NCBI RefSeq assembly: GCF_001927245.1
Contig: NZ_MJUX01000002.1
Location: 1 to 64,000 of the forward strand
DNA length: 64,000 bases
Reading direction: 5' to 3'
Source of the DNA: Acuticoccus yangtzensis
Lineage (GTDB): Bacteria; Pseudomonadota; Alphaproteobacteria; Rhizobiales; Amorphaceae
Of the stretch, positions 7,310 through 64,000 are shown in pieces. The translations under genes were made by a program, and so were the position numbers. Position 1 is the stretch's first letter. Every line of letters begins with the position of its first letter. A model generated the notes under the pieces. It did not search any database, was not told the origin of the DNA, and worked only from the letters and a program-made list of their open reading frames with translations.

Positions 7310-7319
7310 TGGCATGCCA
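7310..7319. promoter_or_regulatory. candidate GntR operator palindrome, copy A
   Basis: TGGCATGCCA, a perfect 10-base palindrome, lies 137 bases upstream of the GntR gene start and just past the stop of the amidohydrolase. The identical sequence recurs upstream of the amidohydrolase at 8688-8697. FCD-type GntR proteins usually bind short palindromes of this kind, so the assignment to the regulator at 6463 is inference. Confidence 0.45.
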
Positions 7320-9474: not shown

Positions 9475-12407
9475 CGGCGGCCTCCCCCGCCCGGCGGTGC
9501 GGCCAGCGCGCTTTCCAGCACGCGGGCGACATGCAGCGCCTCGCGCGCCGCCCCGTCGTGGATCTGGTGGCGGCAGGACGTGCCATCGGCGACGATGATG
9601 GCGTCCCCCGCCGCCCCGCGCACGGCCGGCAGCAGCGCCGCCTCGCCCATGGCGCGGGAGATGTCGGCGGTGGCGGCATCGTAGCCGAAGGCGCCCGCCA
9701 TGCCGCAGCAAGCGGATTCGATCGCCTCCACCTCGAGCTCCGGCACCAGCTTCAGCGCCTCCTGCGCGGCGCCGAAGGCCCCGAAGGCCTTCTGGTGGCA
9801 GTGGCCGTGGATCATCGCCTTGCCGGGGCGCGGCGCGAAGGGCGGCGTCACCTCACCGCGCGCAGCGGCGGCGACGTACCATTCCTCGAACAGGAAGGCG
9901 TTCTTGGCGATGGCGTCCGTTTCCGCGCCCGGCAAGAGGGCCTGGAACTCGTCGCGCAGGGTGAGGAGGCACGACGGCTCCAGCCCCACCACGGCGCGGC
10001 CGGCGGCGATGTGCGGCGCCAATGCGTGCACCATGCGCTTGGCCTCGGCGCGCGCCTCGTCCACCAGCCCGGCGGCCAGATAAGTGCGTCCGCAGCACAG
10101 CGGCCGCTCGCCCTCCACGGCGAGCGGATGCACCGGCACACCCGACGCCGCCAACACGTTGACCGCCGCGCGCAAATTCTCCGGCTCGAACCAGCGGTTG
10201 AAGGTGTCGGCCATCAGGACCACGCCGGGCGAGGCGCCGTCGCTCGGCCGGTGCGCCTCGGCATCCTTGAAGGCATCGCGCCGGAAGCGCGGCAGCGAGC
10301 GGCCCGCGGCGAACCCCGCCACCTTCTCCGACAGGGCGGCGAGGGCCGGCACCCGGTCCCTGAGCGCCAGCAGCCCGCCGACGCGCGAGGCGAACGGCGC
10401 ATAACGCGGCAGATAGGCCACCAGCCGGTCCTTCAGCGGCAGGCCGTGCTTGGCGACACGCGCCGCCTTCACCTCGATCTTCATGCGCGCCATGTCGACG
10501 CCTGTCGGGCACTCCCGCTTGCACGCCTTGCACGAGACGCACAGCGCCAGCGTCTCTGCCATCTCGTCCGACGTCAGCGCGTCCGGCCCGAGCTGGCCCG
10601 ACAGTGCGAGGCGCAGCGTGTTGGCGCGGCCGCGCGTGACGTCCTTCTCGTTCCGGGTAACGCGGTAGGAGGGGCACATGCCGCCGCCGACGGATTTGCG
10701 GCAGGCGCCGTTGTTGTTGCACATCTCCACCGCGCCCTGGAAACCGCCGAGCGCGCCCGGCCAGGCCGACCAGTCGAGCTTCGGCGTCAGGTCCACGGCG
10801 CCGTAGTGGGGCGGGTAGCGCATCAGGGTGCGGTCATCCATCCGCGGCGGGTGGACGACGCGGTTGGGGTTCAGCCGCCCGTCCGGGTCGAACTCGTCCT
10901 TCACCGCCTCGAAGGCGCGTACGATGCGCGAGCCATACATCGGCTCGTGAAACTCCGACCGGACGATGCCGTCGCCGTGCTCGCCGGAGTGGGAACCCTT
11001 GTACTCGGCCACCATCGCGAACGCCTCTTCGGCGATGGCGCGCATGGTGGCCGCGTCCTTGTCGAGCTTCAGGTTCAGCACCGGGCGCACGTGCAGACAG
11101 CCGACGGAGGCGTGCGCGTACCACGTCCCTTTCGTGCCGTTGCGCTCGAACACCTCCGTCAGCCGCTCGGTATAATCGGCGAGGTCGGCGAGCGGCACGG
11201 CGCAGTCTTCCACGAAGGAGACCGGCTTGCGGGCATCCTTCATCGACATCATGATGTTGAGGCCGGCCTGGCGGAACTCGGCGATGGCGCCCTGAAGCCC
11301 CGCGTCCAAGATCTCGACCGGCCCGCCTTCATGGGCGCCGCCCTTGCCGAAATCGAAGCCGAGGTCGGCCATCACGTCGCGCACCGCCTCCACCTTGCGG
11401 GTGGCGACGTCCCAATCCTCCTCGGCGAACTCGACCAGGAGCAGCGCCGCAGGCTCGCCCTTCACGAAGCGGTCCAACGTCTTCGCGAACATCGCGATGT
11501 CGCGGCCGAGGCCGATCATCGTCGCGTCGACGAGCTCGACCGATGTGGGGTCGGTGGCGACGAGGTGCTGGGCCGCCTCCATCGCCGCACGGAAGGTCGG
11601 AAAGTGGCAGGCGATCAACGCCTTGCGCTTGGGCGGCAGCGGCCACAGGCGGATCTCGATCGCCTTCGACAGCGCGAGCGTGCCCTCAGAGCCCACCAGC
11701 ACGTGGGCGAGGTTGATGGGCTCGGCGGCCGGAACCAGCGCGTCGATATTGTAGCCGCCGACGCGGCGTGACACCTTGGGGAATCGCGCGGCGATCTCGT
11801 CCGCCTCGCGAGCGCCGAGGGCCAGCAGCGTCTGCGTCAGCGCGTCGTTGGTGCCGGGGTCCACGGGGCCGAAATGGCGTTCGCTCCCGTCCGCCATCAA
11901 GGCGTCGATGGAAAGCACGTTGTCGCGCATGATTCCGTAGCGCAGCGAGCGGGCGCCGCACGAATTGTTGGCCGCCATGCCGCCGATGGTGGCGCGCGAG
12001 GCGGTCGACACGTCGACCGGGTACCACAGCCCCAAGGGCTTCAAATGACGGTTCAAATCGTCGAGCACGATACCCGGCTCGACGATCGCCCGCCGCCCCT
12101 CGACGTCGAGCTCGATGATGCCGTTCAGGTGGCGCGAGAAATCGACCACGATCCCGGAATTGACGGTCTGGCCGCATTGGGACGAGCCGCCCCCGCGCGC
12201 CGTCACGGACAGCCCTTCCTCGCGCGCGGCGTCCAAGACGACGTTGAGATCGTTCATGGTTTTCGGGATGACGACGGCGCTCGGGATCACCTGATAGACC
12301 GAGGCGTCCGTGGCGTAGCGGCCGCGCGTGAAGACGTCGTGGTGGGCCGAGCCCTGAAGTTCGCGCTCGAGCCTCCGGCGTAGACCGGGACGGACCAAAT
12401 CCGGCAA
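9471..12407 (-). CDS. FAD-binding and Fe-S-binding D-2-hydroxyacid dehydrogenase (YdiJ/GlcD-GlpC type fusion)
   Basis: 978 residues. The N-terminal half is a FAD_binding_4 / GlcD-like flavoprotein (YQVIPSAVVIPKT, then GGGSSQCGQTVNSGIVVD) with its FAD-oxidase C-terminal domain. The C-terminal half is a GlpC-like ferredoxin part with CNNNGACRKS..GGGMCPSY and CVSCKACKRECP, followed by two CCG motifs (CCGRTY and CCGMAGAFGYD). YdiJ-type enzymes oxidise D-2-hydroxyacids such as D-lactate or D-2-hydroxyglutarate and pass electrons to the respiratory chain at the membrane. The start is TTG at 12407 with AAGGGGGGT upstream; no ATG is near. It heads an operon with the GntR gene and diverges from the aminotransferase/TRAP operon. 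Confidence 0.88.
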   Translation of the reverse strand: MPDLVRPGLRRRLERELQGSAHHDVFTRGRYATDASVYQVIPSAVVIPKTMNDLNVVLDAAREEGLSVTARGGGSSQCGQTVNSGIVVDFSRHLNGIIELDVEGRRAIVEPGIVLDDLNRHLKPLGLWYPVDVSTASRATIGGMAANNSCGARSLRYGIMRDNVLSIDALMADGSERHFGPVDPGTNDALTQTLLALGAREADEIAARFPKVSRRVGGYNIDALVPAAEPINLAHVLVGSEGTLALSKAIEIRLWPLPPKRKALIACHFPTFRAAMEAAQHLVATDPTSVELVDATMIGLGRDIAMFAKTLDRFVKGEPAALLLVEFAEEDWDVATRKVEAVRDVMADLGFDFGKGGAHEGGPVEILDAGLQGAIAEFRQAGLNIMMSMKDARKPVSFVEDCAVPLADLADYTERLTEVFERNGTKGTWYAHASVGCLHVRPVLNLKLDKDAATMRAIAEEAFAMVAEYKGSHSGEHGDGIVRSEFHEPMYGSRIVRAFEAVKDEFDPDGRLNPNRVVHPPRMDDRTLMRYPPHYGAVDLTPKLDWSAWPGALGGFQGAVEMCNNNGACRKSVGGGMCPSYRVTRNEKDVTRGRANTLRLALSGQLGPDALTSDEMAETLALCVSCKACKRECPTGVDMARMKIEVKAARVAKHGLPLKDRLVAYLPRYAPFASRVGGLLALRDRVPALAALSEKVAGFAAGRSLPRFRRDAFKDAEAHRPSDGASPGVVLMADTFNRWFEPENLRAAVNVLAASGVPVHPLAVEGERPLCCGRTYLAAGLVDEARAEAKRMVHALAPHIAAGRAVVGLEPSCLLTLRDEFQALLPGAETDAIAKNAFLFEEWYVAAAARGEVTPPFAPRPGKAMIHGHCHQKAFGAFGAAQEALKLVPELEVEAIESACCGMAGAFGYDAATADISRAMGEAALLPAVRGAAGDAIIVADGTSCRHQIHDGAAREALHVARVLESALAAPPGGGGRR

Positions 12408-12561
12408 GTGACCCCCCTTGACGTTATTATGAATGCATTATTCAATCTTCACCAATGAAGTCCACCGGCGCAAGGGGCGACAAAAGCACCGACCGGTGGA
12501 TCGTCCGATCGGCGACGAACGCCGGCGGCGGATGGGACGGGACCAAGGCAGGAGACGCCTC
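12408..12561. promoter_or_regulatory. divergent control region with AT-rich palindrome
   Basis: Shared upstream region of the dehydrogenase operon (minus) and the aminotransferase operon (plus). Around 12422-12445 it is distinctly AT-rich (ACGTTATTATGAATGCATTA..) and holds the perfect 8-base palindrome AATGCATT with flanking arms TGAAT..ATTCA (12430-12444). This is the most likely operator for the cassette 2 GntR protein. I cannot place the -35/-10 boxes with certainty. Confidence 0.45.
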
Positions 12562-13749
12562 GTGACTTATATGCCAGGCCGGCATTTCCTTCAGATTCCG
12601 GGGCCGACGAACGTCCCCGACCGCGTTCTGCGGGCGATGGACATGCCGACCATCGACCACCGCGGACCCGAGTTCAAAAAGCTCGCCGAAAGCTGCCTCA
12701 CGCGCATCCGCGACGTGTTCGGCACCACCAATCCGGTGATCATCTATCCCGCGTCCGGCACCGGGGCGTGGGAGGCGGCGCTCGTCAACACGCTGTCGCC
12801 CGGCGACCACGTCTTGATGTACGAGACCGGCCATTTCGCGACGCTCTGGAAAAAGCTGGCCGAAAAGCTCGGCCTCGTGCCCGAATTCATCGCCGGCTCG
12901 TGGCGCTCCGGCGTCGATCCCGCGGCGATCGAGGCGCGGCTTGCCGAGGACAAGGGTCATCAGATCAAGGCGGTCTGCGTCGTTCATAACGAGACGTCGA
13001 CCGGCTGCACCACGCGGGTGGACGAGGTGCGCGCCGCCATCAACGCGGCGGGTCACCCGGCGTTGTTGATGGTCGACACCATCTCCTCGCTCGGCTCCAT
13101 CAAGTACGAGCACGACGCCTGGGGCGTGGACGTCACCGTCGGCGGCTCGCAGAAGGGGCTGATGCTGCCGCCGGGCCTCTCCTTCAACGCGGTGTCGGAT
13201 AAGGCGATCGAAGCCTCCAAGACGTCGAAGCTCCCCCGCTCCTTCTGGTCGTGGGACGAGATGATCGAGGCGAACGCCCAGAACGTCTTCCCCTTCACGC
13301 CCGCGACGAACCTCCTCTACGGCCTCGACGAGGCGCTGACGATGATGAACGAGGAGGGGCTCGACAACGTCTATGCCCGCCACCAGCGCCACGCCGCGGC
13401 GACCCGCGCGGCCGTCACCCATTGGGGCGGCAACGGCTCGGTGGAGATCCTGTGCGAGGACCCGCGCCACTATTCCGGCTCGTTGACGGCGGTCCAGCTC
13501 CCCGAGGGCTACAACGCCGACGACTACCGCAAGGTGGTGCTGGAGAACTTCAACATGTCGCTCGGCAACGGGCTGTCCAAGCTCGCAGGCCGCGTCTTCC
13601 GCATCGGCCACCTGGGCGACTTCAACGACCTCATGCTCATGGGCACCCTGTCGGGGGTGGAAATGGGCTTCGAGCTTGCCGGTATCCCCTACCGCAAGGG
13701 CGGGACGCAGGCAGCGATGGAGGTCCTCACCTCCAAAGATCAGGCTTGA
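12562..13749 (+). CDS. class V PLP aminotransferase, serine-glyoxylate aminotransferase-like
   Basis: 395 residues from GTG at 12562, which has GGAGA 6 bases upstream; an in-frame ATG three codons later (12571) is the alternative. FLQIPGPTNVPDRV and DMPTIDHRGPEF at the N-terminus and GGSQKGLMLPPGLSF with the PLP Lys (about 198) are typical of serine/aspartate-glyoxylate aminotransferases. Family members make glycine from glyoxylate with serine, alanine or aspartate as donor. It is the first gene ahead of the TRAP transporter, hydratase and CoA-transferase. Glyoxylate could come from the neighbouring ureide cassette or from hydroxyacid oxidation; that link is inference. Beta-hydroxyaspartate-pathway BhcA is a close relative, but its partner genes are not here. 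Confidence 0.87.
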   Translation: MTYMPGRHFLQIPGPTNVPDRVLRAMDMPTIDHRGPEFKKLAESCLTRIRDVFGTTNPVIIYPASGTGAWEAALVNTLSPGDHVLMYETGHFATLWKKLAEKLGLVPEFIAGSWRSGVDPAAIEARLAEDKGHQIKAVCVVHNETSTGCTTRVDEVRAAINAAGHPALLMVDTISSLGSIKYEHDAWGVDVTVGGSQKGLMLPPGLSFNAVSDKAIEASKTSKLPRSFWSWDEMIEANAQNVFPFTPATNLLYGLDEALTMMNEEGLDNVYARHQRHAAATRAAVTHWGGNGSVEILCEDPRHYSGSLTAVQLPEGYNADDYRKVVLENFNMSLGNGLSKLAGRVFRIGHLGDFNDLMLMGTLSGVEMGFELAGIPYRKGGTQAAMEVLTSKDQA

Positions 13750-13849
13750 GGCCGCGGGTCACCGCGCTCTCATCCCCTGCAAGGCGGCCGTCAAAGAGTC
13801 GCCGGCACGATCCCACGACAAAAACGACAACAGGACAGGAAACGCATCC

Positions 13850-54573: not shown

Positions 54574-54823
54574 AGCAGGCGCCTACGCGACCCGCCCCGC
54601 AATGACCCGCACGGCCCGGCCGGGCACCGGCCTTCCTGCGCGCCGCTCGCCGGTTTCGCCGCCTCCTCCCCGGTCTGGCTGACCGGGGCGCGTTCCACTC
54701 ACGAGATCACCCAGCCCCGCCACAGGTCTTCAAGGCACTCTTGCACCGTATCCCTCGGTTCAAGTGGCGAACCTTGGCGCCTGACCGGCGTCCCTCGTGT
54801 TGTGTTGCGTAGAAAGTAGAGTC

Positions 54824-57406
54824 ATGGCTGGTACAGCGACCCCGTCCTCCGCCCCCACCTCCACCAATACTTGGATGACCGGCCTCCTGTCCGGCAGCCA
54901 ATGGACATCCGTCGGGGCCACCGAGATCAGTTATTATATCGCCGGGCAGAGCGGCGACGAAGGCGTCCACCTCGCCGGCGGCTCCATCACCGCGCTCGGG
55001 TCCATCACCGGCGCCGAAATCGCCGCGATGCAGAACGCCATGGCCGCGATGGCGGCCGTCGCGGACATCACCTTCACCAGCGTCGGCAGCCAGGCCGATG
55101 CCGATCTCATCTGGGCCGAGGTGAACAACGCCGACGGCCAGGGCGCACTCGGCTGGGCCAACTTCCCCGGCGGCAACTACAGCAATACGTACAACGACTA
55201 TCAGAGCCTCATCACCGTCAACCAGGAAGGCTATGTCGGGGGATCGGTCGCCATCGGCTCCTACGACTACGTGACCTTCATCCACGAGCTCGGCCACGCC
55301 CTCGGCCTGTCCCACCCGCACGATCCCTCAGGCTCGTCCAGCGTCTTCCCCGGCGTCTCCGGCCCGTTCGGCGACTATGGCGACTACGACATGAACCAGG
55401 GCGTCTATACGATGATGTCCTACAACGACGGCTGGCAGACCGCACCGCACGGCGCCTCCGGCTCACCGAGCTACGGCTGGGCGGGCACGCCGATGGCGCT
55501 CGACATCGCCGCCCTGCAGATCATGTACGGCGCGAACACGACCGCCGCGTCCGGCAACGACACCTATTCCCTCAAAGACGTGAACGCGGCCGGTACCTAT
55601 TATCATTGCCTCTGGGACACCGGCGGGACGGACGAGATCGTCGGCGCCAACGGCAGAGCCAACCTCATCGACCTGCGCGCCGCAACGCTGGGCGACGAGG
55701 CGGGCGGCGGCGGCTTCGTCTCCTACGCCAACGGCATCCACGGCGGCACCACCATCGCCAACGGCGTGGTCATCGAAAACGCCACGGGCGGCTCGCTCGA
55801 CGATGCGATCATCGGCAACACCGCGGCCAACCGCATCTACGGCCTGGCCGGAGCGGACGCCATGTCGGGCGACGCGGGCGCCGACACCCTGCTCGGCCAC
55901 GCCGGCAACGATACGCTGGACGGCGGCGCCGACAACGATACGCTGAACGGCGGCAGCGACGACGACGTCATCACCGGCGGGGCGGGCATCGACACGCTCG
56001 TCGGCGGCACGGGCCTCGACACCATGGACGGCGGCGACGATGCCGACAGCCTGTCCGGCGGCGACGGCAACGATTCCATCACCGGCGGCGCCGGCAACGA
56101 CACGCTGAACGGTGGCGCGGGAAGCGACACCTTCGCCTTCGCGGGCGTCTTCGGCGACGATACGATCGAAGCGTCCGGCGGCGACGCGGGCGAGACCGGC
56201 AACACCATCGCCTTCGGCAGCCTCGTCAGCGAGGCGATGATCTCCGCCGCGCTGGCCGGCAACAACAACGATCTCATCATCACCGTGTCCGGCGGATCGG
56301 GCGGCACGACGCAGAGCGGCACCATCACCATCACCGGATGGGCGGCGGCGCAGGGCTCTGGCGGCGGCTTCGGCTCCTATAGCTGGACTGCGGGCGGGGC
56401 GGGGAGCCACGACCTGACGTCCGGCCTGCCGGCGCCCGCCCCCGCGCCGGACCCCGATCCCGCGCCCGGCCCCGATCCGGCGCCGGCGCCCTCGACGGAC
56501 CCGATCATGGGCGGCCGCGGCTCCGACATGCTCACCGGCACCAGCGGTGACGAGCTGATCGGTACCGGAGCCGGCAACGACCGCGCCTACGGCCTCGGCG
56601 GCAACGACACGGTGATCGGCGACCGGGGCAACGACACGCTCCTCGGCGGGGACGGCGACGATTCCATCACCGGCGACCACAACAACGACAAGCTGTTCGG
56701 CGAGGCGGGCGACGACATCCTCGACGGCGGTGCCGGCTACGACCGGGTCGAAGGCGGCGAGGGCAACGACCTCATCTTCGGCGGCAACTACAACGACACG
56801 CTGTTCGGCGATGCCGGCGACGACACCATCGACGGCGGCGCCCACAACGACCGGATGTGGGGCGGCGACGGCAGCGATTCGATGCTGGGCGGAAACGACA
56901 ACGACCAGATCTACGGCGAGGCGGACGACGACATCCTGTTCGGCGAGGCCGGGGCGGACGCTCTCTACGGCGACGCCGGCAACGACACGCTGGACGGCGG
57001 CCGGGACGCCGACTACCTGACCGGCGGCGATGGCGACGACAGCCTCATCGGCGGTGCGGGGAGCGACTATCTCGTCGGTGAGGCGGGAAACGATACGCTG
57101 GACGGTGGCGACCACGCCGACACCTACCTCTTCGTCGGCGCGTTCGGCGAGGACGTGATCACCGGCCTGGAGGACGGCGACAAGATCCACCTCGCCGGGT
57201 TCCGCGCGGTGAAGGGTGCGGCGATGAACATGCGCGACCTCATCCTGACCCAGCAGGGGGCGGATGTTCTGATCGAGCTCGACCTCGACCGCGATACGGT
57301 GGCCGACAGCGCCGACTATGACGGCGACCTTGCCGCCGACACGGTGTCGGTGCTGGTGCAGAACGTGCTGGTGGCCGACCTCGACTCCGGCCACTTCATC
57401 CTCTGA
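54824..57406 (+). CDS. serralysin-like M10 metalloprotease with two RTX blocks
   Basis: 860 residues. No Sec signal, as expected for type I secretion. The zinc site HELGHALGLSH lies at 154-164 and the Met-turn YTMMSYND at about 195-202. The M10 C-terminal region follows (ALDIAALQIMYGAN, TYSLKDVN). The first RTX block (about 350-450) is followed by a GIT-type domain, a Pro/Asp linker (PAPAPDPDPAPGPDPAPAP, about 540-560), then a second RTX block (about 575-770). The C-terminus ends in a hydrophobic-acidic stretch (..VLVADLDSGHFIL), fitting an uncleaved secretion signal. Start: ATG at 54824. No exporter genes lie in the window. Confidence 0.92.
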   Translation: MAGTATPSSAPTSTNTWMTGLLSGSQWTSVGATEISYYIAGQSGDEGVHLAGGSITALGSITGAEIAAMQNAMAAMAAVADITFTSVGSQADADLIWAEVNNADGQGALGWANFPGGNYSNTYNDYQSLITVNQEGYVGGSVAIGSYDYVTFIHELGHALGLSHPHDPSGSSSVFPGVSGPFGDYGDYDMNQGVYTMMSYNDGWQTAPHGASGSPSYGWAGTPMALDIAALQIMYGANTTAASGNDTYSLKDVNAAGTYYHCLWDTGGTDEIVGANGRANLIDLRAATLGDEAGGGGFVSYANGIHGGTTIANGVVIENATGGSLDDAIIGNTAANRIYGLAGADAMSGDAGADTLLGHAGNDTLDGGADNDTLNGGSDDDVITGGAGIDTLVGGTGLDTMDGGDDADSLSGGDGNDSITGGAGNDTLNGGAGSDTFAFAGVFGDDTIEASGGDAGETGNTIAFGSLVSEAMISAALAGNNNDLIITVSGGSGGTTQSGTITITGWAAAQGSGGGFGSYSWTAGGAGSHDLTSGLPAPAPAPDPDPAPGPDPAPAPSTDPIMGGRGSDMLTGTSGDELIGTGAGNDRAYGLGGNDTVIGDRGNDTLLGGDGDDSITGDHNNDKLFGEAGDDILDGGAGYDRVEGGEGNDLIFGGNYNDTLFGDAGDDTIDGGAHNDRMWGGDGSDSMLGGNDNDQIYGEADDDILFGEAGADALYGDAGNDTLDGGRDADYLTGGDGDDSLIGGAGSDYLVGEAGNDTLDGGDHADTYLFVGAFGEDVITGLEDGDKIHLAGFRAVKGAAMNMRDLILTQQGADVLIELDLDRDTVADSADYDGDLAADTVSVLVQNVLVADLDSGHFIL

Positions 57407-57457: not shown

Positions 57458-57529
57458 GCTCATGCGCCGCATGCGCCTCGTTCGCCCCCACCCATCGGCG
57501 GCGGGGGTCGCACGTCGGACGCGCCGGTC

Positions 57530-57853
57530 CGGGCCGCACATCGGCCAGACCCCCGGATCGGGTTCGCGCCGCTTCGGGCCGCACGGCATCCGGAGCCGCC
57601 GGTTGGGTTTCGCGACACGTCGGGCGGCACTGCAGCCGGGGCCACCGGATGGGTGTCTGCGCCGCGTCGGGCGGCACGGCAGCCGAAGCCGCCTGATTGG
57701 GTTCGCACCGCGTCGGGCGGCATGTCGGCCGGGGCCGCCTGATGGGGTTTGCGCCGTGTCGAACGGCATGGCGGCCGGGGCCACCGCATAGCTGTTTGCG
57801 CCGCGTCGGGCGGCACGGCGGCCGGAGCCGCCGGATGAGCGTCCGCGCCGCGT
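57530..57853. repeat. seven imperfect tandem copies of a 45-47-base unit
   Basis: Units start at 57530, 57575, 57621, 57668, 57714, 57760 and 57807. The consensus begins CGGGCGGCACGGC.GCCGG and ends TTCGCGCCGCGT. Identity between units is about 70-85 percent by eye. The array fills the space between the serralysin terminator and the stop codon of the convergent gph gene. No spacers, so it is not CRISPR. It reads open in several frames, but no ribosome binding site or start supports a protein. Confidence 0.85.
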
Positions 57854-58527
57854 CAGGCGTCGCGGGGTCCGATGACGGCGTCTGCCAGGTTGTCCCAGTC
57901 GGCGAAGCGGAGTGCCGCGGTGATGGCCGCGGGGTTCTTCGCGTAGCCCGGCGTATGGAAGGCGAAGGCCACACGGGCGGCGGACGCGGTGGCCGCGTCG
58001 ACCTCGCTGTCCCCCACGAAGAGCGTCTCCTCGGGCCGGCCGCCGATCGCGGCGATGGCCGACAAGAGCGGCACCGGGCTCGGCTTTATCTGGGACTGCG
58101 TGTCCCCGGCCACCACCGCGCCGAACAGTCCGGCAAGACCGAAGGCGTTCAGCACCGCATGGGTCGGCGCGGCGGGCTTGTTGGTGCAGAGCGCCAATGC
58201 CACGCCCGCCTCGGCGAGGCGTGACAAGGCCTCGAAGGCCCCCTCATAAGGCACGTTGTCACCGGGCGGGGCTGCGGCGTAGAGCGCATGGAAGGCCGGA
58301 TAGCGCGCCTCCAGCGCCGCCGGGTCTGACCGCAAGCCGCGCGCCGCCAGCATGCGCTGGCAGAACACCCGCGCCCCGTTGCCGATGAAGGCGCGAGTGT
58401 CGTCGAGAGTGAGCGGGGGTTTGCCCTCACCCGCGAGGTACGTCGCGGCGATGCGCTGAATGGCGGGTGCGGAGTCGATCAAGGTGCCGTCGAGGTCGAG
58501 CACCACCGCGCGGTAGGGGCCAGTCAT
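57853..58527 (-). CDS. gph: HAD-superfamily phosphatase, phosphoglycolate phosphatase-like
   Basis: 224 residues. VVLDLDGTLIDSAP has the nucleophile and acid Asp pair (DxDGT). LCTNKP is motif II, IKPSPVPL gives the motif III Lys, and ETLFVGDSEVDAATA is motif IV. This is the Gph/CbbZ type with a C1 helical cap. ATG at 58527 starts the family-length protein. The frame stays open for 157 more codons upstream, but these are an 18-base tandem repeat and not protein-like. With rpe upstream on the same strand it may dispose of 2-phosphoglycolate. Confidence 0.87.
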   Translation of the reverse strand: MTGPYRAVVLDLDGTLIDSAPAIQRIAATYLAGEGKPPLTLDDTRAFIGNGARVFCQRMLAARGLRSDPAALEARYPAFHALYAAAPPGDNVPYEGAFEALSRLAEAGVALALCTNKPAAPTHAVLNAFGLAGLFGAVVAGDTQSQIKPSPVPLLSAIAAIGGRPEETLFVGDSEVDAATASAARVAFAFHTPGYAKNPAAITAALRFADWDNLADAVIGPRDA

Positions 58528-58556: not shown

Positions 58557-59145
58557 CGGCGCGAGACATGGATTTAGCCCGAAGCGACGCGTGGGCGCGC
58601 AGGATGGCATCAGCCCGGAGCAGGGCGTCGGCGGGAAGGATTGCGCCGGCCGCGAGCGGGGCGTCCGCGGGAAAGATGGCGCCGGCGCGAGACATGACGT
58701 CGGCTCTAAGGATTGGGTCGGCGCGAAGCGGGGCGTCAACGCGGAGGATGGCGTCGGCGTGAATCGGGGCGTCGGCGCGAAGGATGGCGTCGGGGTAAAT
58801 CGGGGCGTCGGCGCGGAGGAAGGCGTCGGCGCAGCGCGCGAGCTTTCCCCACCGAGCCCCTTCGGCGACGAACGCAGTGCCGGGGCGAAAGGCGATGTCC
58901 GCATAGTGCGCGGCGTTTGTCCGGCGCGGCTCGCTCGCGCGGAACGCGTCGCCTGCGCGCGACGCGGCGTCGGCCCGCCGCGGCTTGCGCGCGCGCAACG
59001 CGGCGCGTGCACGGAACGCGGCGCATTCACGGGACGCGGCGCGCGCGCGGAACGCCGCGCATTCACGGGACGCGGCGCCTGCGCGGAACGCGGGGTATTC
59101 ACCGAACGCGGCGCGTGCACGGGGCGCGGCGCGGGCGGGTGCGCC
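58557..59145. repeat. 18-base-unit minisatellite between gph and rpe
   Basis: Two blocks with the same 18-base period. Block 1 (58557-58844) has about 16 units, consensus CGGCGCGAAGGATGGCGT, alternating with units ending ATCGGGGCGT to give a 36-base higher-order period. Block 2 (about 58941-59145) has about 11 units of type GGCGCGTGCACGGAACGC alternating with GGCGCATTCACGGGACGC. The part between (58845-58940) is degenerate. Because 18 is divisible by 3, every frame is open in places and long spurious hexapeptide-repeat frames appear. This fills the whole rpe-gph gap (618 bases). Confidence 0.87.
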
Positions 59146-59844: not shown

Positions 59845-60520
59845 GGTGCTTCCTTCTGAGGCGCCCGCTCCGGGGTCCTTCGGGCATCGAGGCCCCGGCG
59901 CCTGATGTGGGCGGTCCGGTCGCGGCCTCGTCGATGGGTGGGGCGCGCGTGGCCGGGGGCCTTCGCATGCCGACGAACGGCAGCAGCCCCCGCCCGGCCG
60001 CGCCCGGCCCGGCACCTCGCGGTCCAGGTGGTCGCCGGCGCAGGCATCGCGCTGCCGCCTCCTGGGCATATAGACGCAAGCGTTGCCCCGCGCACCCTCG
60101 GCACATCGCCTATTTCAGCGCGTCGCCCATGCGCGGACGGCGGCTCCCCCTCTGCGCGGACGCCGGGTCGCCGCGCGGGGCGGCCGCCCGGGCCGGATCG
60201 CCGGCGCCAGCAGCGCCCACGCGGTACTCGATGGTAAGGATCCATCGCCGCCGGGTCATCGCGGCAAAGGCCCGGCCCCCGCGGGGTGCAGGGACAAGCG
60301 CCGGACAAAGTCTCGCGTTCTTCATCCGATCAGCTCCAAATCGGGGGTGACTCCAGAACTGATTTGAGTCTAATCTGGCACAGCGTTTGCATTAAACGCA
60401 CTGACATCCAACGGCGGATGTTTCCCCGGCAACGGTGCCGATCGACGACGGACTGACCGAAGCTCCTGCTTTTGCGGGCCTCGGACCCCTCTCGTGTTTC
60501 CATCGTGCGCCGGGTCATCC
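59845..60520. other. divergent intergenic region, rpe to oxidoreductase operon
   Basis: 676 bases without a recognised gene. 59900-60310 is very GC-rich and shows nothing I can name. 60330-60400 is AT-richer and carries the sigma-54 promoter at 60376-60391. Just upstream, CAAATC (about 60336) and GATTTG (about 60361) form a spaced inverted repeat that might bind an activator. Confidence 0.5.
60376..60391 (+). promoter_or_regulatory. sigma-54 (RpoN) promoter
   Basis: TGGCAC-AGCGT-TTGCA: both the -24 (TGGCAC) and -12 (TTGCA) elements match the RpoN consensus exactly with the correct 5-base spacing. Transcription would start near 60402, about 120 bases upstream of the oxidoreductase ATG at 60521. 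Such promoters need an enhancer-binding activator, which is not encoded in the window. Confidence 0.75.
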
Positions 60521-62527
60521 ATGAACATTGCGCTGCCACACCTTTGCGAACCGATCCTGACCGACGCCGGCGCCAAGCCGGTGATCGTCGTCGGCGGCGG
60601 GCCGGTCGGCGTGCGTGCGGCGCAGGAATTGTCCCGCCGCGGTCGCCGGGTGATCCTCTTCAATGCCGAGCGGTGGCGCCCTTATAACCGCGTCAAGCTC
60701 ACACCGCTGATCGCCGGTGAGGCGGAGATCGGCGCCGTCTATTTCAGCGAGCGCTTCCCCGGCCCCGGCAGCGTGGAGCGGCACGACCAGACCACCATCG
60801 TCGACATCGACCGCGCGGCCCACACGGTGACGACGGGCCGCGGCCAGGTCTTCGCCTACGACAAGCTGGTGCTGGCGCTGGGGAGCCACGCCTTCATCCC
60901 CCCCATTGCGGGCGCCGACCTCGCCGGGGTCTACGCCTTCCGCAATTTCGACGATGCGGAGAAGCTCGTCGCCCGGTCTATGGCCGCGCGCGAAGTGGTG
61001 GTGATCGGCGGCGGCCTCCTCGGTCTCGAAGCCGCGCGGGGCATGGCCCGGCGCGGGGCCCACGTCACCGTGGTGGAGCACGAAAGCCGCCTGATGCCCC
61101 GCCAGCTCGACGAGGCGGCCGGCGCGGCGCTGAAACGGCGCATCGCCGTCATGGGTGTCGAGGTGCTGACCGGCGTGCGCGTCGCCTCCATCGACGGGAC
61201 GTGGCGCGTTTCCGGCATCACCCTCGCGGGCGGCATCAAGGTGCCGGCCGACACGGTGGTGGTGTGCACCGGGGTGCGGGCCAACATCCAGCTTCCGAAG
61301 GGCGTGGGTCTCGCCTTCCACCGCGGCGTGGTGGTCGACGACGAGCTGCGCACCTCCGACCCGGACATCTACGCCGTCGGCGAATGCGCCGAGCACAACG
61401 GCACCGTCTACGGCCTCGTCGGCCCCGGGTTCGAGCAGGCCGCCGCCGCCGTCGCCAGCATCACCGGAACGCCTGTCGCCTATGGCGGCTCGGTTCCCGC
61501 GACGAAGCTCAAGGTGCTCGGCGCGGACGTCTTCTCGATGGGCGACTTCGAGTCCGCCGCGCAAATCCCCGGCGTGAAGACGATCACCTACGAGAGCGCC
61601 GAAGCCGGCGTCTACCGGCGCCTTTTCCTTGAAAATGGCCGGCTGGTCGCGGCGCTCGGCGTCGGCCCTTGGCCGGAATCAAGCCGCCTGCAACAGGCGG
61701 TGGCGGACCGTGCGCGGCTTCCCTTCTGGGCCTTCTGGTCCTTCCGCCGCACCGGCCGCCTGTGGCGCGAGCGCGAGGAAGGCGCCACCGCCATGCCCGC
61801 GGGCGCCATCGTGTGCAACTGCACCGGCGTCACCAAGGGCACGATCGACAACGCCATCACCCTGGGCGCCACCACCATCGACGAGGTGCGCGGGGCCACC
61901 AGCGCCAACACCGTATGCGGCACCTGCCAGCCTCTCGTCATGGAGCTTCTGGGCGCGGGAGGCGCACCGGCGAAGGCCGAGCCGGTGAAGTGGTGGCGCT
62001 GGGTCTCCGCCTTCTCGGCGGTCGCGGTGCTGGCCGCCCTCGCCACGCTCCTCTTTCCGCGCGTGCCGGTGCCGGACAGCTTCGAGACCGGCAAACAGCT
62101 CCGCGACCTCTGGTTCAATTCCATCACCAAGCAGTGGACCGGCTACGCGCTCCTCGGCATCACCGCCGCGGCGGCGCTCATCGGCCTGCGCAAGAGGATC
62201 GGCCTCTTCAAGCGGCTCGGCGGCTATCAGGCGTGGCGGCTCGTCCACCTGGCGCTCGGCGTTCTGGCGGCAGGCGCGCTGGTGGTCCACACCGGCTTCC
62301 GGCTCGGCAGCAACCTCAATCTGGCGCTGATGGCGTGTTTCACCCTCATGCTCGCCTTCGGCGCCGTCTCGGGCCTCATCACCGGCGGCGAACACAAGCT
62401 GCGCGAGGCCGACATCGTCGGGGCCGCGGACAAGCCCCGCGCGCTGCCGCTGTGGGTGCACATCCTGGCGCTGTGGCCGCTGCCTCTGCTCCTCGCCTTC
62501 CACATCCTCAGCGTCTATTCCTGGTAG
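60521..62527 (+). CDS. fused FAD/NAD(P) oxidoreductase - [2Fe-2S] BFD - diheme cytochrome b membrane protein
   Basis: 668 residues. Residues 20-410 are a NirB-like pyridine nucleotide-disulfide oxidoreductase domain with two Rossmann motifs (VVGGGPVG about 23-30, VIGGGLLGLE 161-170) and the FAD-binding DIYAVGECAEH (282-292). Residues 430-470 are a BFD-like [2Fe-2S] domain with C432, C434, C466 and C469 (CxC-x31-CxxC). About 495-664 hold five membrane helices. H576/H590 lie in one helix and H647/H661 in another, each pair 14 apart, the classic arrangement for two b hemes. I infer transfer from cytoplasmic NAD(P)H across the membrane. The siroheme domain of NirB is missing. The next gene encodes a multiheme cytochrome c 6 bases on. 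ATG at 60521; ribosome binding site weak. Confidence 0.85.
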   Translation: MNIALPHLCEPILTDAGAKPVIVVGGGPVGVRAAQELSRRGRRVILFNAERWRPYNRVKLTPLIAGEAEIGAVYFSERFPGPGSVERHDQTTIVDIDRAAHTVTTGRGQVFAYDKLVLALGSHAFIPPIAGADLAGVYAFRNFDDAEKLVARSMAAREVVVIGGGLLGLEAARGMARRGAHVTVVEHESRLMPRQLDEAAGAALKRRIAVMGVEVLTGVRVASIDGTWRVSGITLAGGIKVPADTVVVCTGVRANIQLPKGVGLAFHRGVVVDDELRTSDPDIYAVGECAEHNGTVYGLVGPGFEQAAAAVASITGTPVAYGGSVPATKLKVLGADVFSMGDFESAAQIPGVKTITYESAEAGVYRRLFLENGRLVAALGVGPWPESSRLQQAVADRARLPFWAFWSFRRTGRLWREREEGATAMPAGAIVCNCTGVTKGTIDNAITLGATTIDEVRGATSANTVCGTCQPLVMELLGAGGAPAKAEPVKWWRWVSAFSAVAVLAALATLLFPRVPVPDSFETGKQLRDLWFNSITKQWTGYALLGITAAAALIGLRKRIGLFKRLGGYQAWRLVHLALGVLAAGALVVHTGFRLGSNLNLALMACFTLMLAFGAVSGLITGGEHKLREADIVGAADKPRALPLWVHILALWPLPLLLAFHILSVYSW

Positions 62528-62533
62528 GGGCCG

Positions 62534-64000
62534 ATGTCGCTGAAACGGAATGCGGCTCTCTGGATCCTGTGGCTGGGCCTCACCCTCGCCGGCGGCGGCG
62601 CGCTGGCCGCGATCGTCTATGTCGGCGGTGACAGGGACCTTTTCCTCATCGGGGACACCACAGGCGCGCATCATCAGATCGAGGTGGCGTGCGACGCCTG
62701 CCACACCTCCGAGACCTTCGCCGACGCCGAGACGATCCAGAAGGACATGAACAAGGCGTGCCTCTCCTGCCACGCCGACGAGCTGGACGTCGCCAACGAC
62801 AGCCACCCGGTGAAGAAGTTCCGTGATCCGCGCAACTTCCGCCGGCGCGAGGCGCTGGACGCGCTCTATTGCACCACCTGCCACGCCGAGCATGTGCCCG
62901 AGGAGACGCGCGTCGGCGCGGTGACGCTGCCGATGGACTACTGCATGGCCTGCCACCAGGACGTGTTCGAGAACCGCCCGAGCCACCAGGGCAGCGACTT
63001 CACCACCTGCGCCAGCGCCGGCTGCCACAACTTTCACGACAACGTGGCGCTCTACGAGGACTTCCTCGTCAAGCACGCCGACATGCCGGACTTCGCGGCT
63101 CACCCTGTGATCGGCTTTTCGGCCCGCAGCCGCGCCACCCCGGTCGCCGATGCGCTCGCCTCTGACGACGCGCGCGCCCAGATGATCGCCTACCTGAAGA
63201 CGCTGGGCGAGGACGACGACGACGCCGCCGAAGAGGCCGACGAGCGGCTAGCCGCCGTGCTGACGGCGGACGACGCGCTCGCCCCGGCGCCGTACCTCAC
63301 GGCCGGCGCCGTCGCCGAATGGGCCGGGTCGAAACACGCGCTCGGCGGGGTGAACTGCGCCGGGTGCCACGCGCCGGAGGCCGCCGCGGACGACTTTGCC
63401 GCCATCGAGGCCGAGTGGATCGCAGAGCCCGGCATGGACACCTGCGTGTCGTGCCACAAACGCGAGGTCGGCTCGTTCCGCGAGGGCAAGCACGGCATGC
63501 GCTTCCACCCCGAATTGCCGGACCCGCGCGAGGCGCCGGAGAACACCCTCCTCGCCGCGTTGACCGCGATGTTCCGTGACGCGCCGTTGGGGCCGATGCC
63601 GGTGGCCGAGGCGCGCCTCCCGATGAAGCCGGACGCCATGGGCCGCGCGGCGGGCACGTGCACCGCCTGCCACGCGCCGCACGAGTCCAACCTCGCCTTT
63701 GCCGCGGTTGAGGCCTGCGCCTCCTGCCACGACGACGACCACACGCGGGCCTATTTCACGTCGCCCCATTTCAGGCTGTGGGAGGCGGAGATGGCGGGGA
63801 CGGGCGCGCCCGGAACCGGCGTGTCGTGCGGCGATTGCCACATGCCGAAGGTGGAGCTGCAGCGCGGCAACTTCTTCGTCACCCACAACCAGAACGCTTA
63901 TCTGCGGCCGAATGAAAAGATGATCCGGCCGGTTTGCCTGTCCTGCCACGGCCTCGGCTTCGCCATCGACGCCCTGGCAGACCCCGAACTCGTTGAAAAC
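62534..64000 (+). CDS. membrane-anchored multiheme cytochrome c, at least 11 hemes (partial, runs off window)
   Basis: 489 residues visible, no stop before the window ends. An uncleaved-looking membrane anchor lies at about 7-30, preceded by LKR. Ten CxxCH motifs have their first Cys at 53, 76, 113, 137, 275, 304, 376, 395, 432 and 468, and one CASAGCH (Cx4CH) is at 159-165. They fall into two clusters (53-165 and 275-472) joined by an acidic linker without hemes (about 166-265, with EDDDDAAEEADE). ATG at 62534 is 6 bases after the stop of the fused oxidoreductase, with GGGG upstream, so the two are co-translated partners. Probable periplasmic acceptor of electrons from the diheme b domain; terminal substrate unknown. 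Confidence 0.88.
   Translation, partial: MSLKRNAALWILWLGLTLAGGGALAAIVYVGGDRDLFLIGDTTGAHHQIEVACDACHTSETFADAETIQKDMNKACLSCHADELDVANDSHPVKKFRDPRNFRRREALDALYCTTCHAEHVPEETRVGAVTLPMDYCMACHQDVFENRPSHQGSDFTTCASAGCHNFHDNVALYEDFLVKHADMPDFAAHPVIGFSARSRATPVADALASDDARAQMIAYLKTLGEDDDDAAEEADERLAAVLTADDALAPAPYLTAGAVAEWAGSKHALGGVNCAGCHAPEAAADDFAAIEAEWIAEPGMDTCVSCHKREVGSFREGKHGMRFHPELPDPREAPENTLLAALTAMFRDAPLGPMPVAEARLPMKPDAMGRAAGTCTACHAPHESNLAFAAVEACASCHDDDHTRAYFTSPHFRLWEAEMAGTGAPGTGVSCGDCHMPKVELQRGNFFVTHNQNAYLRPNEKMIRPVCLSCHGLGFAIDALADPELVEN

Follow-up and report, generated by a model that had tools for sequence, protein, structure and literature searches.

The subject of this report is an operon at the end of a 64,000-nt stretch of Acuticoccus yangtzensis DNA (assembly GCF_001927245.1, contig NZ_MJUX01000002.1, positions 1-64,000; hereafter the window, the genome being designated G000). 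Its first gene encodes a fusion of an oxidoreductase, a BFD domain and a membrane cytochrome b domain, and its second an anchored 11-heme cytochrome c. The two proteins are predicted to form a transmembrane conduit running from NAD(P)H through flavin adenine dinucleotide (FAD), a [2Fe-2S] cluster and two b hemes to the 11-heme cytochrome, an assignment well supported by features read from the sequences, namely domains, invariant ligands, gene order and co-occurrence; the promoter and hairpins of the leader are of the same kind. That the operon as a whole is an NAD(P)H-driven conduit of a nitrate/nitrite regulon, serving the removal of nitrogen oxides, is a proposal in which our confidence is evenly divided. 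Feature coordinates are collected in Table 1, and DNA past the window end was read from the same contig (C22).

The first-pass annotation of this DNA described a single polypeptide carrying an FAD/NAD(P) oxidoreductase, a BFD motif and a membrane domain with two histidine pairs, followed closely by an anchored cytochrome with at least 11 heme motifs, and both descriptions hold. The fusion protein carries a BFD domain (PF04324; 52.3 bits against a cut-off of 26), and its cluster cysteines (Cys 432, 434, 466 and 469) are invariant in 16/16 aligned proteins. Its closest solved relative by profile is the N-terminal domain of the NirB family (3klj). The fusion shares with NirB (TIGR02374) the N-terminal FAD/NAD(P) and BFD part, corresponding to positions 2-469 of the 794-position profile, but its score of 383.7 bits does not reach the cut-off of 578.35; the siroheme/4Fe-4S half of NirB is missing, with the membrane domain in its place. 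The NIR_SIR domain, present in the other NirB of this genome, is not among the Pfam families shown for the fusion. A structure model of the fusion is of moderate confidence (mean predicted local distance difference test score, pLDDT, 64.9), and a fold search with this model returned flavoproteins only among the matches listed.

The four histidines of the membrane domain (H576, H590, H647 and H661) are invariant in 17/17 aligned domains and lie at positions i and i+14 of predicted helices 3 and 5, which is the arrangement of a diheme cytochrome b; we infer that both pairs are loaded with heme. Loops 2-3 and 4-5 are the richest in lysine and arginine (means of 5.4 and 4.3 residues per loop, vs. 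2.4 and 0.6 in the remaining two) and are therefore predicted, together with the N-terminal flavin part, to be cytoplasmic. This topology would place H576 and H647 towards the cytoplasm and H590 and H661 towards the periplasm. No Pfam family exceeded its cut-off for this domain in two scans, which gave weak matches only to DUF4405, Ni_hydr_CYTB and Ferric_reduct, and a PDB profile search with the domain yielded no match. The membrane domain has distant relatives that stand alone, and these adjoin cytochromes of 18, 21 and 10 CXXCH motifs (L132:2448-6422, L133:4297-6929 and L134:1176-8645; loci are given L numbers and genomes G numbers), with separate FAD or Fe-S reductases nearby in L132 and L134. 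As at the A. yangtzensis operon, a distantly similar membrane domain stands beside multiheme c genes at these three loci, but the genes are split, and the cytochromes and reductases (Pyr_redox_3 with Fer4; NAD_binding_1 with Fer2) are different. These loci suggest a conduit of the same design divided over separate genes, and with their other cytochromes indicate that the module has been re-used.

The cytochrome open reading frame (ORF) begins 6 bases after that of the fusion. Exactly 11 c-heme motifs are found in all 17 aligned homologues, the A. yangtzensis protein included, made up of 10 CXXCH and one CX4CH in 16 of them and of 11 CXXCH in one. The best solved relatives of the cytochrome profile are NrfA, the octaheme nitrite reductases and HAO; a CXXCK catalytic heme is usual for NrfA and the octaheme reductases. 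The cytochrome may be catalytic or may simply carry electrons.

Reading downstream past position 64,000 revealed two more genes, coding for a c-heme Cache protein and a single-domain globin, so that what had at first pass been taken as a two-gene unit really comprises at least three genes, and usually four. The globin belongs with the single-domain bacterial globins, and its Tyr28, Gln49 and His81, kept in 11/11 aligned proteins, form what we take to be the pattern of NO-dioxygenase-type globins, with the tyrosine presumably at helix position B10 and the glutamine at E7. It is followed by a gene assumed from its sequence to encode TldD. Two loci without the usual globin have a monoheme cytochrome c (PF13442/PF00034) after the operon (L012:12155-12535 and L013:12003-12359). 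In L125 the gene after the globin (11495-13786) encodes a DsbH-like thioredoxin protein with a single CXXCH, and ORFs of like size and heme count occupy the same place in L127 and L128. The Cache protein is a member of the sCache_heme family, with the Cys and His of its motif invariant in 14/14 aligned proteins, and 13 aligned relatives are 55-82% identical to it. These proteins are stand-alone, carry no signalling domain and, by eye, begin with a signal-peptide-like N terminus. Beyond residue 33 none of the 14 has a Cys apart from the two of CXXCH, and the axial heme ligand should therefore differ from the Cys/His type. In a preprint, a c-heme Cache member of the stand-alone kind is described as redox-like and ligated by Cys/His, and one of the signalling type as NO-binding (PMC12889525). 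As far as that description goes, the A. yangtzensis protein shares PF11845, the CXXCH motif and the absence of a signalling domain with the stand-alone Tll0287 type, but it lacks a conserved candidate for the Cys axial ligand of the Pseudomonas putida and Tll0287 proteins (PMC12889525).

Eighteen loci, the A. yangtzensis locus included, were assembled for comparison, with the fusion cut by a contig start in two of them (L126 and L131). A whole-collection scan with the fusion, from which 80 of 160 relatives were kept, gave five full-length relatives among those 80 (records of Hyphomicrobiales, Gammaproteobacteria, Actibacterium, Hahella and Rhodocyclaceae); the other 75 matched the NirB-like part and at most little beyond it, and were excluded from every count. 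Genome searches with the membrane domain added ten loci in the same order (the A. yangtzensis genome aside) and two from a phylum-wide sample (n = 398). A class sample of 11 genomes contained no further full-length relative, and a plasmid search gave no match at E 1e-80. The gene order fusion-cytochrome-Cache is kept in 18/18 loci, a globin of the same type is present in 14/18, and L013 has a truncated globin instead. Membrane-domain matches at E 1e-29 or better occur in 11/297 genomes of the order, the same 11 of which carry the cytochrome at E 1e-20; in five other genomes of the order the membrane-domain matches are all weak (E above 1e-5). In comparisons of 13 carriers (three of them 78-82% complete) with 17 chosen non-carriers, a Cache member at E <1e-70 was present in 13/13 carriers vs. 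1/17 non-carriers. A close Cache relative (E 1.5e-73) lies at G002:C307:5992-6528, in a genome where neither the fusion nor the cytochrome was matched.

Promoters of the sigma-54 class combine GG at -24 with GC at -12 at a constant distance, and leaders of the ANTAR/NasT type have two hairpins whose hexaloops carry A at position 1 and G at position 4. The leader of the operon displays both, with a predicted sigma-54 site in which GG, GC and spacing are all kept and, following it, two hairpins with hexaloops of the required form. The window and three further stretches from the same genome (227,876 positions, ~228 kb with both strands counted and overlap counted twice) were scanned; sigma-54 sites of 11/12 were found at two distinct places, the operon's being one, and the strict tandem pair of hairpins with AACG loops was found once. 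The second 11/12 sigma-54-like site is at window position 7319 on the minus strand. Upstream sequence is present for 16 loci, and sites of at least 10/12 occur in 13 of these, 11 of the 13 with both GG and GC. In hairpin alignments of six chosen loci, compensatory changes, on both sides of the stem, were found in 5/7 pairs of hairpin 1, with 0/500 shuffles reaching any of five measures, and in 3/4 pairs of hairpin 2, a value reached by 17/500 shuffles (3 to 49 of 500 across the five measures), these pairing percentages being favored by the choice of only those loci in which the hairpin was found (6/16 each). Searches for FNR, NnrR/DNR and Fur sites upstream gave no consistent signal, with one perfect FNR site in L013 only, and a candidate NtrC site was set aside as weak (p 0.03 at the A. 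yangtzensis locus, 0.017 in L012).

The Rfam narK RNA (RF03032) matches this leader over its full length (positions 1-72) at 60377-60441, with an E value of 1.4e-5. Among 12 short stretches the match had E values of 2.8e-5 for G226 and 2.3e-4 for the A. yangtzensis leader, and the L013 leader matched at E 0.0028. When 17 whole genomes were searched, with 150 candidates scored per genome, the top two places were the operon leaders of G226 (6.2e-6) and A. yangtzensis (3.4e-5). All of these leader matches score below the gathering threshold, and matches up to E 1 were found in 15/17 genomes and 6/14 controls. In L122 a clear terminator (-39.1 kcal/mol) starts at the second hairpin's loop, as antitermination would predict, and terminators were also found in L010 (-28.9 kcal/mol) and L009 (-24.1 kcal/mol). 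An ANTAR protein was found in 6/13 carriers searched (G000, G226, G058, G200, G220 and G232). Pairs of A..G hexaloop hairpins are present in 5/6 ANTAR-bearing loci (L006, L120, L121, L122 and L129; not L124) and in 0/5 loci without ANTAR (L123, L125, L127, L128 and L130), a link that is suggestive and no proof, since four of the five ANTAR-less loci are from one genus, the pairs of L121, L122 and L129 fall short of the strict type, and such hairpins also arise by chance, as the extra ones in L010 and L013 indicate. Strict pairs are also found in L011 and L013, whose genomes were outside the ANTAR search. The ANTAR protein of A. yangtzensis (G000:C28:260230-260391, 77.4 bits) has a receiver domain and adjoins an NMT1-like gene near nirB, which is the NasT-NasS arrangement. 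NasS and NasT are described as a nitrate/nitrite-responsive pair (PMC3795266), and NasT as an antiterminator at the nas leader of Paracoccus (PMC5424462). Taken together, the leader features suggest that the operon is a member of a nitrate/nitrite regulon.

Table 1. Predicted features of the operon and its leader in A. yangtzensis; positions are those of the window unless marked otherwise.
Feature	Position	Strand	Basis and remarks
Sigma-54 (-24/-12) site, TGGCACAGCGTTTGCA	60376..60391	+	11/12 consensus positions, GG and GC among them
Leader hairpin 1, 7-bp stem, hexaloop AACGGC (ANTAR/NasT type)	60403..60422	+	Pairing changes among loci
Leader hairpin 2, 4-bp stem, hexaloop AACGGT	60427..60440	+	Pairing changes among loci
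Fusion protein, 668 aa: FAD/NAD(P) oxidoreductase, [2Fe-2S] BFD, membrane cytochrome b domain	60521..62527	+	ORF and Pfam
Pyr_redox_2 (FAD/NAD(P))	60578..61453	+	Residues 20-311; Pfam 8.9e-60
Rubredoxin_C	61496..61708	+	Residues 326-396; Pfam 9.1e-16
Fer2_BFD [2Fe-2S], CXC...CXXC	61808..61951	+	Residues 430-477; Pfam 7.3e-14
Membrane domain, five predicted helices, H576/H590 in helix 3, H647/H661 in helix 5	61988..62518	+	Alignment, predicted topology
Anchored 11-heme cytochrome c, 513 aa	62534..64000, ends 64075 (75 bases outside window)	+	ORF, Pfam, motif count
c-heme Cache protein (PF11845)	contig 64142-64735, outside window	n/a	68.5 bits vs. cut-off 24.1
Single-domain globin	contig 64811-65284, outside window	n/a	PF00042, 68.6 bits

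Under the proposed mechanism, the sigma-54 promoter, probably of the NtrC type, would drive the operon together with NasT antitermination in ANTAR-bearing carriers, NasT presumably binding the paired hairpins. The FAD domain would take electrons from NAD(P)H and hand them to the BFD [2Fe-2S] cluster, from which they would pass to the cytoplasm-side b heme (H576/H647), on to the periplasm-side b heme (H590/H661) and finally to the membrane-anchored 11-heme cytochrome; we infer this outward direction of flow. The cytochrome, aided by the periplasmic c-heme Cache protein, would most likely reduce or feed a nitrogen oxide, nitrite or nitric oxide (NO), arising from nitrate or nitrite assimilation, and the globin present in most operons probably removes intracellular NO, with the same flavoprotein as its likely electron donor. 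The first-pass annotation had proposed the same electron path, which gains support from the invariant ligands, predicted topology, gene order and co-occurrence; it had left the use of the electrons as a choice among N- or S-oxyanions, a metal and an extracellular acceptor, of which the leader points to nitrogen oxyanions. A nitrogen oxide is named here as the most likely substrate on the grounds of regulation and gene company only. More tentatively, and with doubt outweighing confidence, the cytochrome may reduce periplasmic nitrite or NO during nitrate assimilation while the flavoprotein-fed globin clears cytoplasmic NO, giving removal on both sides of the membrane. If the proposal is true, nitrate assimilation, which is known to take place mainly in the cytoplasm, gains a periplasmic electron-transfer arm, and the stand-alone c-heme Cache proteins gain a fixed set of partners. 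Nitrate with low ammonium would also become a defined test condition for a multiheme conduit that could not otherwise be assigned.

By analogy, the narK-bjgb-flp-nasC operon of Bradyrhizobium is a tested precedent for the pairing of globin and flavoprotein. It is described as NasT-dependent, with a single-domain globin and an NAD(P)H flavoprotein that are linked both to the assimilation of nitrate and to NO detoxification, Flp being the electron donor to NasC and Bjgb (PMC4724949), and NasT-type hairpins have been predicted at narK-bjgb-flp (PMC6759348). Likened by these descriptions, the two operons share a mode of control and both pair a globin with a flavoprotein, but the A. yangtzensis flavoprotein carries a membrane cytochrome b domain, the 11-heme cytochrome follows it, and there is no nasC. 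The undecaheme cytochrome of the Uet complex, compared in the same way, also has 11 hemes, but Uet is described with a porin, other cytochromes, NHL proteins and a role in extracellular electron transfer (PMC5371394, PMC10734462); the Uet and Slit_1321-1324 clusters, with their other gene sets, were set apart on these descriptions. No description of the present gene set was recognised in the literature among the matches listed, with thin coverage of subscription journals.

A number of observations weigh against assigning the operon to a nitrate/nitrite regulon and to nitrogen-oxide removal. The narK RNA score of the A. yangtzensis leader, 37.4, is below the gathering score of 43.2, and only 3/15 leaders searched were matched, with no match in L009, L010, L011 and nine genome leaders, nor in the nas leader of A. 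yangtzensis itself. Likewise, neither a sigma-54 site nor a tandem pair of AA.. hairpins was detected in a strict script scan of the A. yangtzensis nas stretch, where an AACGCC loop, then a G+C-rich stem and a run of T, can be seen by eye ahead of the next gene. The sigma-54 site is absent from 3/16 loci, the strict tandem pair (AACG loops, stems of at least 4 bp) is found in only 4/16 (L006, L120, L011 and L013), in L121, L122 and L129 one of the two hairpins is less strong or differs in its loop, and the terminator candidates of the A. yangtzensis leader and L120 are weaker. No ANTAR protein was found in 7/13 carriers, five of them from one genus, and in Bradyrhizobium under denitrifying conditions, expression of narK-bjgb-flp is described as rising in a nasT mutant (PMC6759348). 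In the wider gene company, NirK is over its cut-off in 1/13 carriers (plus a contig-edge fragment in G234) vs. 3/17 non-carriers, NnrS is found in 5/13 vs. 9/17, and NirB, in 10/13 vs. 8/17, is only mildly enriched. A role as denitrification partner was rejected, as neither NirK nor NnrS is enriched among carriers. A role as donor to periplasmic nitrate reductase was rejected as well; NapA at E 1e-80 was found in 0/13 carriers vs. 4/17 non-carriers, which makes feeding of NapAB unlikely. For the cytochrome, CXXCK is absent from 17/17 aligned proteins, and beyond the His of the motifs there are 12 further invariant His for the 11 hemes. Bis-His ligation of every heme is therefore possible, and with it a role as carrier in place of an enzymatic one.

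This last point bears on what receives the electrons. If all 11 hemes are bis-His carriers, the operon could be a general electron outlet in which the same chain serves another acceptor (a metal, an extracellular acceptor or a periplasmic enzyme), with nitrate control reflecting altered redox balance only. The stand-alone membrane-domain relatives described above (L132, L133 and L134), each beside a multiheme cytochrome and two with a separate FAD or Fe-S oxidoreductase in the vicinity, fit such an outlet, but the genes that recur at the operon are those for the c-heme Cache protein and the globin, no recurring porin was seen in the loci, where part of the neighbors lack identification, and the leader indicates nitrogen oxyanions, all of which make a general outlet unlikely. 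An enzymatic role for the cytochrome could instead take the form of a periplasmic ammonifying nitrite (or hydroxylamine) reductase feeding assimilation, in line with the profile relationship to NrfA, octaheme nitrite reductases and HAO, with the nitrate/nitrite-type control and with the failure to find NapA in any of the 13 carriers. The similarity to these enzymes is confined to short heme-motif stretches, however, which together with the missing CXXCK speaks against placing the cytochrome in their families, and carriers in which NirB is already over its cut-off number 10/13; an ammonifying reductase is accordingly regarded as improbable. Diheme b membrane domains are frequently in contact with quinones, and the fusion could on that ground be an NAD(P)H:quinone oxidoreductase, or could operate in reverse, from periplasmic donors to NAD+. 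The constant pairing with the 11-heme cytochrome argues against such readings, as does the fact that electron flow to NAD+ is uphill from most c hemes, and they are the least credible of those considered. An NAD(P)H-driven conduit acting on nitrogen oxides is thus retained as the preferred interpretation.

Elsewhere in the window, an ORF at 54797-57406 has, by eye, the look of an RTX-type metalloprotease (HELGHALGLSH and GGxGxD-like repeats). Between this RTX-like gene and a ribulose-phosphate epimerase gene lie degenerate tandem repeats at 57520-57859 and 58589-59132, with 46-bp and 18/36-bp units, which give rise to long low-complexity reading frames.

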